The position numbers and the translations under genes are program-made. The notes below the pieces were generated by a model. It saw nothing but the letters and a program-made list of their open reading frames with translations, was not told the DNA's origin and made no database searches. DNA of 38,468 bases from Thermoplasmata archaeon (lineage in GTDB: Archaea > Thermoplasmatota > Thermoplasmata > Lutacidiplasmatales > UBA184), in assembly GCA_022750155.1 (NCBI GenBank), contig JAKIWG010000021.1:1-38468 (forward strand), given 5' to 3'. This document shows, one piece after another, positions 5,055-37,246 of this stretch (its first letter is position 1; each line of letters opens with the position of its first letter).

Positions 5055-5156
5055 GCAGGTGTAATCTAGCGGTAGGATATCAGCCTTCCAAGCTGATCAC
5101 CCGGGTTCGAAACGGCGGGGGACCCTTCCCCCTCCCCGAGGCTCCCGGCGCCTGCA
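5055..5156 (+). tRNA. tRNA-Gly(UCC), interrupted by a T-loop intron
   Basis: Mature tRNA is exon 5055-5111 joined to 5143-5156 (71 nt, no encoded CCA). Acceptor GCAGGTG (5055-5061) pairs with CGCCTGC (5149-5155), with one U-G pair; A5156 is the discriminator. The D stem is ATCT/GGAT. The anticodon stem TCAGC/GCTGA is perfect, with loop CTTCCAA giving anticodon UCC (codon GGA). The T stem CCGGG (5101-5105) pairs with CCCGG (5144-5148) only after removing 31 nt, which also restores the consensus loop TTCGAAT. Read without splicing, the T and acceptor stems cannot form, so the gene would look truncated to a simple search. No clear TATA box precedes it; it may be read through from cgi121. Confidence 0.9.
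5112..5142 (+). other. tRNA-Gly intron (31 nt) at position 59/60 of the T-loop
   Basis: The flanking RNA forms a bulge-helix-bulge. The T stem is the outer helix. The T-loop bases TTCG (5106-5109) pair with CGAG (5137-5140) as the 4-bp central helix, with a U-G end. Three-base bulges AAA (5110-5112) and GCT (5141-5143) lie on opposite strands. The inner helix includes GGGGGA (5117-5122) with TCCCCC (5127-5132) and loop CCCT. Cutting after the second base of each bulge gives exactly the consensus T-loop after ligation. It is inferred from folding, not from RNA data. Confidence 0.85.
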
Positions 5157-5240
5157 CTTCCCGGGTCGGCTGCCGGTCCCGATGCCATGGTCTCGAAGGG
5201 ATTATGGCCGACGGTCCCGCTTCCCGGCCTCCGGGACGGT

Positions 5241-5324
5241 GCTGAGGTAGCCTAGCCTGGAAAGGCGCCAGCCTTGAAAGCTGGTGGCGTTCTCGCCTCG
5301 GGAGTTCAAATCTCCCCCTCAGCG
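5241..5324 (+). tRNA. tRNA-Ser(UGA)
   Basis: An uninterrupted 84-nt class II tRNA. Acceptor GCTGAGG pairs with CCTCAGC (5317-5323); G5324 is the discriminator. The D stem is GCC/GGC. Anticodon stem CCAGC/GCTGG carries loop CTTGAAA with anticodon UGA, reading UCA. The long variable arm has stem GGCG/CGCC with loop TTCT, as expected for serine. The T stem GGGAG/CTCCC carries loop TTCAAAT. No 3' CCA is encoded. An A/T-rich patch (gattatgg, about 5199-5206) lies about 38 nt upstream, consistent with a tRNA promoter. Unlike the other two tRNAs here it has no intron. Confidence 0.95.
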
Positions 5325-36019: not shown

Positions 36020-36361
36020 ATGGGGGGGCCATCCGAGGGGAAACCGCCGGTCAGCCGCGCCGTGGAGAGCGCGTTCACCAAGGTCTGGGGGGACGAACAC
36101 GTCGTGGCGCTCATCGCCTTGAAGGTCGAGACCGCCGAGGCGGACAACGTCGCGACGGAGGTCGCGCGCTTCTCCGAGGTCGACGACGTCTTCCTCGTCA
36201 CCGGGGACACCGACATCTTTCTCAAGGTCCGATTCCCCCACTACGAGGAGCTGAAGGAGTTCGTCCTCCACCGGCTCCCGGCCGTCAAGGGGATCCGCGA
36301 GACGAAGACCCTGCTCGTCGTCACCGCGTACAAGGAAGGCGGGGAGGCGCACCGCCAATGA
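36020..36361 (+). CDS. Stand-alone RAM (Lrp/AsnC ligand-binding) domain protein
   Basis: A 113-residue protein with the RAM fold of Lrp/AsnC regulators: ALIALKVETAEADNVATEVAR, shown in parts as ALIALKVETAEADN and VATEVARF, then DVFLVTGDTDIFLKVRFPHYEEL and GIRETKTLLVV. No helix-turn-helix precedes it, so it cannot bind DNA alone. Such proteins bind amino acids and form rings, and can modulate full-length Lrp proteins. The ATG follows a GGGAG-like site about 12 nt upstream. Its stop overlaps the UPF0147 start (ATGA), giving translational coupling. Confidence 0.9.
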   Translation: MGGPSEGKPPVSRAVESAFTKVWGDEHVVALIALKVETAEADNVATEVARFSEVDDVFLVTGDTDIFLKVRFPHYEELKEFVLHRLPAVKGIRETKTLLVVTAYKEGGEAHRQ

Positions 36362-36681
36362 CGGGCGTGACCGGTGCCGCGGCCCCTTCCGTCGGCGCGC
36401 CGCTTCCCGGAGGCCCCCTGCCGACGGAAGAGCGCTCGCAGAAGCTCGCGCGCATCGTCGACTCGCTCGACCAGCTCTCCGACGACACGTCGGTCCCCCG
36501 GAACGTCCGGCGGGGCGCCGCGTCGGCGAAGGGCGAGCTCGGCAAACCCCGCGTCGCGCTCGACGTGCGGATCGCGAGCGCGGTCTACGTCCTTGACGAC
36601 CTCGCGAACGACCCGAACCTGCCGACCCACGGTCGGACCGCCATCTGGTCGATCATCTCGAGCCTGGAGAGTTTCCAGTGA
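36358..36681 (+). CDS. UPF0147 family protein
   Basis: A 107-residue member of the archaeal UPF0147 family. The core is LARIVDSLDQLSDDTSVPRNVRR and AVYVLDDLANDPNLPTHGRT, which I quote in parts as LDQLSDDTSVPRNVRR and LDDLANDPNLPTHGRT. These are the two helical repeats with the conserved D-x-SVPRN and DPNLP signatures. It has an N-terminal extension of about 25 residues (Gly, Pro and Ala rich) beyond the usual ~90. No function is established. It overlaps the RAM-domain gene by 4 nt and lies 59 nt before tRNA-Lys. Confidence 0.92.
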   Translation: MTGVTGAAAPSVGAPLPGGPLPTEERSQKLARIVDSLDQLSDDTSVPRNVRRGAASAKGELGKPRVALDVRIASAVYVLDDLANDPNLPTHGRTAIWSIISSLESFQ

Positions 36682-36709: not shown

Positions 36710-36762
36710 ACCCCTCGTCCACGCCGGACGGAACGGGAGCGGGCCCGTAGCTCAGGTAGGTT

Positions 36763-36792
36763 GGTCGTCCGGCGACGCCGGCGGCCCTACAA
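36763..36792 (+). other. tRNA-Lys intron 1 (30 nt) in the D-loop
   Basis: GTAGG (36756-36760) pairs with CCTAC (36786-36790) as the central helix. Three-base bulges TTG (36761-36763) and AAA (36791-36793) lie on opposite strands. The inner helix GTCGTC (36764-36769) pairs with GGCGGC (36780-36785), capped by GGC/GCC with loop GAC. Cutting after base two of each bulge places the intron just before A21. The outer D stem does not stack directly on the central helix, so this is a relaxed bulge-helix-bulge. Confidence 0.82.
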
Positions 36793-36831
36793 AGAGCAGC
36801 TGGCTTTTAACCAGTTGGTCGGGGGTTCGAA

Positions 36832-36869
36832 CGGGAGCTCGACGGCGATCGTCCGCAGCTCCCCGGCAC
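36832..36869 (+). other. tRNA-Lys intron 2 (38 nt) at position 59/60 of the T-loop
   Basis: Bulges AAC (36830-36832) and ACT (36868-36870) flank a weak central helix of TTCG (36826-36829) with CGGC (36864-36867), which has two standard pairs, one U-G and one mismatch. The inner helix GGGAGCT (36833-36839) with AGCTCCC (36857-36863) is perfect, extended by GACG/CGTC (36841-36844 with 36850-36853). Splicing gives loop TTCGAAT. Confidence 0.83.
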
Positions 36870-36904
36870 TCCCCCCGGGCCCGTTCCGCTCCACCGGAGA
36901 ACCA

Positions 36905-37246
36905 ATGAGTCCCACGCGCGCACGGCGTCCGAAGTCCTCCAAACGCGCCGCGACCGACCCGGCGGCCCCGCCGCCTCGCACGTGGTCGACGCACCACCTC
37001 GTCCCTCCCCACGAGATCCTCACCGAGGAGGAAACGCAGAAGGTCCTGCAGACGCTGGGGGCGTCGATCGAGCGTCTCCCGAAGATCCTCGCGAACGATC
37101 CGGGCCTTCGGACCGACTCGAAGTACCAATCCTACAAGGACGCCCACGAGCCGCTTGCCGGGCGCCTCGTGCGCATCCGCCGGCCTTCCTCCACCGCGGG
37201 CGAATCGGTCGCCTACCGAGTCGTGATCGCCAACCTGGGGGACTAG
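36905..37246 (+). CDS. rpoH: DNA-directed RNA polymerase subunit H
   Basis: A 113-residue RpoH (RPB5 C-terminal domain homologue). The core begins THHLVPPHEILTEEETQKVL and continues LPKILANDPGLR, quoted here in two parts, and AYRVVI at the end. It has an unusual basic N-terminal tail of about 28 residues (MSPTRARRPKSSKRAATDP). It starts 21 nt after tRNA-Lys, too close for its own TATA box and leaderless start outside the tRNA, and 10 nt before rpoB. A GGAG-like site (ccggagaa, 36894-36901) lies about 5 nt before the ATG. The frame runs back to 36374 but that region is the UPF0147 gene and the tRNA. Confidence 0.94.
   Translation: MSPTRARRPKSSKRAATDPAAPPPRTWSTHHLVPPHEILTEEETQKVLQTLGASIERLPKILANDPGLRTDSKYQSYKDAHEPLAGRLVRIRRPSSTAGESVAYRVVIANLGD

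Follow-up and report, generated by a model that had tools for sequence, protein, structure and literature searches.

A tRNA-Lys(UUU) gene with introns at 20/21 and 59/60, and the T-loop introns that accompany it, in an uncultured Thermoplasmata archaeon

Archaeal tRNA introns described so far

BHB introns, and the two positions considered here (20/21 and 59/60), are already known according to the survey in PMC4090602. Thermoproteales and other Crenarchaeota are reported to carry small BHB introns outside 37/38, including at 20/21 and 59/60, with several per gene (PMC4090602, PMC3218864, PMC8450103), and are summarized as having mostly (alpha-beta)2 enzymes of broad specificity and introns at many positions; in contrast, most non-canonical introns in the tRNAs inspected in the present genome share a single T-loop site, others lie in the D-loop, and the genome's enzyme is alpha'-like and loop-less. 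Euryarchaeal tRNAs with more than one intron have been listed for Methanopyrus kandleri and Methanothermobacter thermautotrophicus (PMC4033280), but that listing covers two species, whereas here one double-intron gene recurs across several families of the class. In the eukaryote Cyanidioschyzon merolae, tRNA-Ile(UAU) likewise has introns in the D-arm and the T-arm (PMC9602550), although at positions 12/13, 37/38, and 53/54 and with a different enzyme. The Asgard Atabeyarchaeia and Freyarchaeia offer a parallel as non-Crenarchaeota from wetland soil with many non-canonical introns; however, 92-95% of their tRNA genes are reported to contain introns, over half of them several, and a single preferred T-loop site is not described in the consulted part of that report (PMC11291895). 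Finally, the alpha'2 enzymes of Archaeoglobus fulgidus (1RLV/2GJW) and Thermoplasma acidophilum (2OHC) resemble the enzyme described below in being a two-repeat single chain, and the alignment to the A. fulgidus chain has no gap over YG..LS. Such enzymes are summarized as narrow (PMC6379350), whereas here the only such gene detected sits beside many T-loop and some D-loop introns.

Against these published summaries the intron layout of the present gene is indeed unusual, as the initial annotation had proposed. What appears to be new, next to the known BHB introns and the two known positions, is the pair of Lys introns across families and orders, the multiplication of T-loop introns at a single site, and the loop-less alpha'-like enzyme. 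In the open-licence literature, searched through titles and the starts of abstracts, none of these three features was found described for Thermoplasmatota or Methanomassiliicoccales; the term "T-loop intron" led only to a red-alga case, and the main text of the Lutacidiplasmatales genome paper does not contain the word "intron." Some of these tRNA genes may already be listed by tRNAscan-SE 2.0 or GtRNAdb, the former being described as looking for such introns.

The tRNA-Lys(UUU) gene and its two introns

The stretch of DNA analysed here (the window, 38,468 nucleotides) comes from contig 21 of a 2.13-Mb assembly of an uncultured soil archaeon, in 51 contigs and 93.7% complete. Its relatives are named Candidatus Lutacidiplasmatales, an order that NCBI places in Thermoplasmatota, which bears out the membership that had been assumed provisionally. 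At 36741-36883 on the forward strand lies the sole tRNA-Lys(UUU) gene found in the genome; a pattern scan and tRNA scans of the assembly gave no second one. Its parts and its neighbours are as follows.

36358..36681, forward strand: gene for a UPF0147 family protein, upstream context (Pfam PF03685, E 8.2e-28)
36741..36761, forward strand: exon 1, positions 1-20, with the acceptor 5' strand, the D-stem 5' strand, and the start of the D-loop (sequence, comparison, ARAGORN)
36762..36792, forward strand: D-loop intron of 31 nt at 20/21 (104 distinct sequences, covariation, intronless relatives)
36756-36759 (GTAG) with 36787-36790 (CTAC), forward strand: central helix of the D-loop intron, bulges at 36760-36762 and 36791-36793
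36793..36831, forward strand: exon 2, positions 21-59, with the D-stem 3' strand, anticodon arm, variable loop, T-stem 5' strand, and TTCGAA (sequence, comparison, ARAGORN)
36832..36869, forward strand: T-loop intron of 38 nt at 59/60 (107 distinct sequences, pair counts, empty site in locus L069)
36826-36829 (TTCG) with 36864-36867 (CGGC), forward strand: central helix of the T-loop intron, bulges at 36830-36832 and 36868-36870
36870..36883, forward strand: exon 3, positions 60-73, with T60, the T-stem 3' strand, and the acceptor 3' strand (sequence, ARAGORN)
36905..37246, forward strand: RNA polymerase subunit H-like gene (Rpb5 C-terminal domain), downstream context (PF01191, E 6e-19)

The anticodon arm is uninterrupted (loop CTTTTAA), the discriminator is G, and CCA is not encoded; the exons lie in order inside 143 bases, so the gene is neither split nor permuted. 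In scans of the window, ARAGORN and the Rfam gathering score both miss it and report only a tRNA-Ser near 5240. After in silico splicing with the flanks included, tRNA-Lys(ttt) is recognized by ARAGORN only if both introns are out, and no call is made at the locus when neither or just one is removed; precise excision thus restores a standard tRNA-Lys, as judged both by ARAGORN and by the intronless loops of relatives. The expectation that such a gene is easily missed therefore holds for ARAGORN and Rfam, and for those tested programs only. Against dinucleotide shuffles, the fold z-score of the whole gene is -3.40, and the D-arm stretch (-1.71) and the T-arm stretch (-0.13) are unremarkable when taken alone; the main support for the introns comes from comparison with relatives. 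Among 119 distinct sequences with sufficient flank, 38 (10 intronless ones included) have an RpoH-like motif 3' of the tRNA-Lys, as counted with a simple regular expression so crude that its misses mean little. No relatives were found when the UPF0147 protein was used as a query against viral contigs.

The intron borders were examined in 126 distinct sequences from 193 loci, of which 104 have the D-loop intron and 107 the T-loop intron. For both introns, the exon edges are constant, the edge bases of the intron are variable, and the exon-intron pairs form and covary. In the D-loop, exon GTAG (16-18) pairs with CTAC in the 3' part of the intron, leaving the bulges GT|T and AA|A. With cleavage expected behind the second base of a bulge, the cut points are placed after 36761 and after 36792. 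The 5' bulge begins with GT in 101 of the 104 sequences, with A (49), T (46), or C (9) as its third base, and the 3' bulge ends in A in all 104. Because this third base is variable, and because 13 of 22 distinct intronless relatives have the D-loop AGCTAGGTA, the intron is assigned to 36762-36792. The initial annotation was thus right that a D-loop intron exists, but its 30 nt at 36763-36792 is better replaced by 31 nt, a length shared by 78 of the 104; ARAGORN accepts both versions. Of the central helices, 76 have 4 bp and 28 have 3 bp, and 23 exon/intron combinations occur (for example GTAG/CTAC, CTAG/CTAG, GCAG/CTGC, and CCCG/CGGG), with a mean of 3.73 pairs as against 2.95 with shuffled partners (maximum of 1000 shuffles, 3.17). 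In an alignment of 41 sequences, 95.7% of the cells of the named pairs are paired, compared with 32-43% when slid by 1-3 columns. Seven of 13 pairs are changed on both sides, a count as high in 4 of 500 shuffles; these 41 are the window copy and 40 others, picked from the 78 distinct sequences having a 31-nt intron so that helix types were well spread, a choice that raises this count.

In the T-loop, TTCG (54-57) pairs with CGGC, U54.C being a mismatch in the window genome, and from the bulges AA|C and AC|T the cuts would fall after 36831 and after 36869, so that the 38-nt intron keeps the position first given to it, 36832-36869. T60 is present in all 107 sequences, under a parser that gave a bonus for T. 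In 98 of them the helix has 4 bp, in the other 9 it has 3 bp, the partner strand being CGAA (37), CGGA (37), CGAG (19), CGGC (7), CGGG (5), or AGAA (2), and intron lengths among these 107 distinct Lys sequences run from 14 to 58. In an alignment of all 36 distinct sequences with a 38-nt intron, the named pairs form in 96.6% of cells, compared with 41-75% when slid by 1-3 columns. Among these 36, the U54 pair is missing from 3 (the window copy has 3 of its 4 pairs), and two pairs show double changes, a number reached by 301 of 500 shuffles; covariation here is modest and double changes are few because the exon half is nearly invariant. Intronless relatives have the T-loop TTCGAAT in 11 of 19 cases, as splicing would give, and L069, from the window's own family, lacks the T-loop intron only, its natural empty site reading TTCGAATCCCAG. 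With a 4-bp helix, two opposed 3-nt bulges, and stems on both sides (98 of 107), the T-loop intron is a strict BHB. The D-loop intron has the central helix and both 3-nt segments, but A14-G15 lie opposite its 3' bulge, and it is therefore a relaxed, bulge-helix-loop-like site rather than a strict BHB.

The gene is widely distributed. A BLAST match was obtained in 98 of 101 same-family genomes (own included, 7 genera), 8 of these being weak only (E > 1e-5). Both introns are present in 29 of the loci behind the best 30 BLAST matches (the remaining one, L022, runs off its contig), in 19 of the 20 loci taken from the family's other genera, and in 80 of 80 named GTDB loci, the latter drawn from 96 stretches with a search pattern that demanded the start of the T-loop insertion. 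These locus sets share species and hence overlap, so the distinct-sequence counts are the fair ones. A class survey of 56 loci from 14 other families found both introns in f2 (2/2), f3 (1/1), f7 (1/1), f11 (4/4), f22 (4/4), and f29 (4/4), and in 6 of 10 loci of f9, the other four of which carry the T-loop intron only; neither intron is present in f8 (9/9), f15 (5/5), f19 (9/9), or f31 (3/3), and the loci from f4, f13 (two), and f17 are not tRNA-Lys. Outside the tRNA-Lys tally stand L022 (contig end) and L180, L181, L226, and L227, which are pattern matches that do not parse as tRNA-Lys. Because the D-loop and T-loop introns have been lost separately, neither is indispensable. The Lys(UUU) pattern was unmatched in 98 of 250 class genomes, including every listed f5 and f25 genome, where it could be split or altered or have an interrupted anticodon arm.

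Named carriers include Candidatus Lutacidiplasma silvani AcS3-62 (L148) and many "Thermoplasmata archaeon" bins, and the Lys gene of G039, from the window genome's genus, is by eye the same as that of L148, so the window genome is probably a near relative of Candidatus Lutacidiplasma. Other carriers are titled Methanomassiliicoccales, Methanomassiliicoccaceae, or Methanomassiliicoccus (e.g., L094, L104, L116, L123, and L133; further, L144, L150, L151, L161, and L162), and some carrier relatives are recorded as methane producers. The introns are common to different orders and hence old; therefore, they give no evidence of the unusually active intron gain that had been read into them. Judged from these sequences, the pair is not a recent gain, and it may have been gained once and lost several times. 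A strict T-loop intron pattern matched 21 of 292 genomes, every one within the class, and 0 of 202 outside it (G306-G507); at least four genomes that have the intron in their Lys gene (G178, G185, G238, and G241) escaped it, so the absence outside the class carries little weight.

T-loop introns in other tRNA genes and in relatives

Past gain appears instead at 59/60, where 14 of the 43 tRNA genes identified in the window genome carry an intron, always at the same position as read: Lys(UUU), Arg(UCU), Arg(UCG), Ala(GGC), Ser(GGA), Ser(GCU), Ser(CGA), Gln(CUG), Leu(UAG), Asp(GUC), Gly(UCC), Asn(GUU), Glu(CUC), and His(GUG). Simple scans of the genome missed many isotypes, and these genes were found by reading weak matches and T-arm pattern hits and then by a covariance model, R1, with isotypes assigned from the anticodon arm; in Ser(GCU), Ser(CGA), and Gln(CUG) a contig edge cuts off the 5' end. 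Three of the six rows of R1 are T-intron genes of this same genome and match by construction, its E-values are rough, and intact tRNAs also matched; since 150 of 607 candidates were scored in the own-genome search, the counts are lower bounds. Two MAFFT alignments of mixed T-intron tRNAs, in which anticodon or T-loop columns had slipped, were not used for the model. In some tRNAs with A57, such as Arg(UCU), the central helix of the T-loop intron contains, by eye, a G.A mismatch.

A second T-intron tRNA lies in the window itself.

5055..5156, forward strand: tRNA-Gly(UCC), with a T-loop intron at 5112-5142 (31 nt) at 59/60

This gene, 84 bases upstream of an intact tRNA-Ser(UGA) at 5241, has a sub-threshold Rfam match and an R1 score of 62.1 bits; ARAGORN misses it unspliced and calls tRNA-Gly(tcc) once it is spliced. 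Removal of the T-loop intron likewise gives the expected ARAGORN call for Arg(UCU), Ala, Ser(GGA), Asp, Asn, Glu, His, and Arg(UCG), of which Arg(UCG), Asp, and Glu had already been called unspliced. Leu(UAG) passes only with an additional cut in the D-loop, and as 121 such cuts pass, the cut is not unique.

D-loop introns are carried by Lys(UUU) and, as read by eye, by Leu(UAG) and Arg(GCG). The Leu(UAG) locus, L266 (G000 C26:1-400, ~133-271), has apparent D-loop and T-loop introns in a double layout like that of Lys(UUU), and the tRNA-Arg(GCG) with a D-loop intron is L253 (G000 C26:70443-70803). Introns at 37/38 only are found in Tyr, Met, Leu(UAA), and Trp, where Leu(UAA) was called Ser(tga) by ARAGORN and re-read, and Trp was read by eye. 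The 24 intact genes include Ala(UGC), whose two parts sit at two contig ends.

Similar sets of T-loop introns occur in relatives. Among five same-family genomes, at least 13 tRNAs with such introns were parsed in G004 (with His taken from the first of two parses), 13 in G006, 9 in G007, 9 in G001, and 7 in G003; in other families there are at least 3 in G178 (f2), 5 in G222 (f3, introns of 13-26 nt), and 3 in G119 (f11), while in G250 (f22) and G136 (f9) Lys is the only T-intron tRNA among those parsed. All of these are lower bounds, because only the longer matches were fetched and candidates were partly scored in several genomes (150 in two of the five genomes in one batch and in four of the five in the other). 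The parsing scripts required about 3 central-helix pairs for a T-loop intron, so helix strength in the relatives is not independent evidence. A few loci depend on the parse: L410, L411, and L438 are unparsed; L342 is His with a T-loop intron in one parse and unparsed in the other; L309 and L311 parse as T-intron, and L324 as T-intact, in the second parse only; and L308 is read as a Met neighbour in one and as Asn in the other. Among the sampled genomes, the Lys T-loop intron is, as far as sequence can tell, the widely shared one, and the resemblance of the sets in five genera suggests that multiplication of the site preceded the split of these genera.

Very short T-loop introns of 13-15 nt were also seen in G222 (L311, L343, L346, and L349) and G119 (L309). 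Insertions in the D-loop were seen in G222 (L344, Thr(UGU); L345, Thr(CGU); L348, Arg(CCU)), G250 (L352, Thr(CGU)), and G119 (L359, Ala(CGC)), and D-loop introns therefore recur in the class too.

The splicing endonuclease, the choice of position, and the tRNA set

One endonuclease gene was detected in the window genome (353 aa, GTG start). It has two PF01974 and two PF02778 stretches and matches the A. fulgidus alpha'2 enzyme over residues 71-335 of 353; two N-type and two C-type units thus lie on one chain, which makes the protein two-repeat and alpha'-like. The presumed catalytic Tyr-His-Lys, assigned by eye, lies in the C-terminal unit. At what is presumably the site where the Crenarchaea-specific loop (CSL) would sit, YGSRVGARLELS aligns gap-free to the wild-type A. 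fulgidus enzyme, and no CSL/ASL loop insertion with a conserved Lys was found in the endonuclease of this genome. Nor was an insertion at the loop site seen by eye in 14 proteins extracted from 15 genomes (G136 left out). Two endonuclease hits in one frame are present in 14 of the 15 genomes (one of G112's below cut-off), and one in G147. Intron-bearing and intron-free families share this enzyme type, and therefore the enzyme alone does not explain who carries introns.

Published statements on homodimer specificity disagree. In a review from 2019, alpha'2 enzymes are listed as narrow and intron-rich tRNA sets are associated with CSL/ASL enzymes (PMC6379350). According to a 2014 review, euryarchaeal alpha4 and alpha2 enzymes cut canonical BHBs only, and Korarchaeum, with a loop-bearing enzyme, is the only archaeon with alpha2 and non-canonical introns (PMC4033280). 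Bulge-helix-loop-like sites are reported in both to be left uncut by narrow enzymes (PMC6379350, PMC4033280), whereas another account has homodimeric enzymes also cutting BHL-like motifs (PMC8707768). Substrates from the window genome and its relatives could decide between these statements, and several families with such introns and a loop-less enzyme would separate two ideas that have been bundled, non-canonical position and non-canonical motif.

Taken together, 36741-36883 is very probably a working gene for tRNA-Lys(UUU) whose two BHB introns, at 20/21 and 59/60, are old. In the mechanism that we propose, the alpha'-like endonuclease would act as a homodimer and cut each 3-nt bulge behind its second base, and the exons would be joined by a tRNA ligase, expected to be RtcB. 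The T-stem and U54-U55-C56-R57 are the same in nearly every tRNA. Directly abutting one another, they would offer a ready half of a strict BHB, and an intron with CGAA or something near it in its 3' part would complete the motif in most tRNAs. We tentatively suggest that this is why 59/60 is favoured, a site that would suit a narrow enzyme because half of the motif is already provided by conserved bases of the T-loop next to the T-stem. However, an account based purely on a narrow enzyme is weakest at the relaxed motif of the D-loop intron, the recurrence of D-loop introns counts against a T-loop preference, and that preference leaves the intact Thr, Val, Phe, Cys, and other tRNAs of the window genome unexplained. 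The two Lys BHBs would also hold G18, G19, U55, and C56, the bases of the D-loop/T-loop contact, and the tRNA elbow should therefore form only after both introns have left. A bolder reading, which may be correct but is somewhat more probably wrong, is that the T-loop of Lutacidiplasmatales is a universal docking site for introns, making a lineage with a narrow, loop-less alpha'2-type enzyme intron-rich, and that the Lys elbow introns serve as a folding checkpoint. If true, the docking-site idea would contradict the rule by which an abundance of non-canonical introns requires a broad enzyme with the loop, and the sites of intron accumulation would be predictable from enzyme type alone.

The alternatives differ in what they would have the introns be. 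That the locus is a tRNA pseudogene with two insertions, another Lys(UUU) gene doing the work, had been named at the outset as the case that would overturn the reading; it is extremely improbable. It is true that ARAGORN and Rfam are blind to the locus and that a second copy could have gone unseen in an assembly of this completeness, but the genome gives only one Lys(UUU) pattern match, the exons are conserved while the introns drift and keep their pairs over more than 100 distinct sequences, and both insertions take the BHB shape and correspond to empty sites seen in relatives. Recent spread of the T-loop introns by the copying of one intron among tRNAs, as reported in Thermoproteales, would fit the use of 59/60 in all 14 genes, and introns of different tRNAs do score above shuffled ones (0.12 within the window genome and 0.09 between genomes, versus -0.05), although shared helix constraints alone could raise the scores of unrelated introns. 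It is nevertheless improbable: for 8 of the 13 tRNAs shared with G004, introns of the same tRNA score 0.24 and those of different tRNAs 0.09, the observed mean is reached by 19 of 40320 permutations of the matching, and, by mean score, no near-identical introns at different tRNAs were seen among the 8 compared. Because same-tRNA introns are more alike than mismatched ones, the spread predates the split of the two genomes, in which the T-loop introns look inherited in place.

Two further explanations concern why functional, spliced introns would be kept. They might be retained because they disrupt integrase attachment sites, as in the protection idea of PMC3293823, and not by endonuclease preference; the 5' or 3' end of a tRNA gene is given there as a typical attachment site, the T-loop lies in the 3' part, and the intron pair has persisted in several families. 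However, 19 stretches resembling tRNA 3' ends share at most 15 bases with intact tRNAs, which lends no support to attachment-site remnants, and f8, f15, f19, and f31 manage without either intron in the Lys gene, so we regard this explanation as unlikely. Only slightly better placed, and still rather doubtful, is the proposal that the introns gate maturation or modification, the elbow bases being held in the BHBs until splicing and the order of modification and folding being set thereby. In its favour, the central helices use 16-18 and 54-57, the 5' bulge of the D-loop intron holds G19 and U20, and Pus4 of C. merolae is reported to have made no Psi55 in a pre-tRNA with a T-arm intron (PMC9602550); against it, 4 of 10 f9 loci lack the D-loop intron only, L069 lacks the T-loop intron only, and the sampled f8, f15, f19, and f31 loci lack both.

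In practice, the tRNA sets of these organisms will look incomplete to tools without T-loop intron models. Among the 43 tRNA genes identified in the 93.7% complete assembly, no Ile gene was found and Pro is represented only by CGG. Contigs C17, C25, C26, C29, and C44 of G000 end inside tRNA genes, and assembly breaks therefore hide part of the tRNA set. A tRNA-Trp(CCA) with a long anticodon-loop intron is present at L255 (G000 C29:86666-87026); tRNA-Trp introns of this size harbour box C/D RNA in other archaea.
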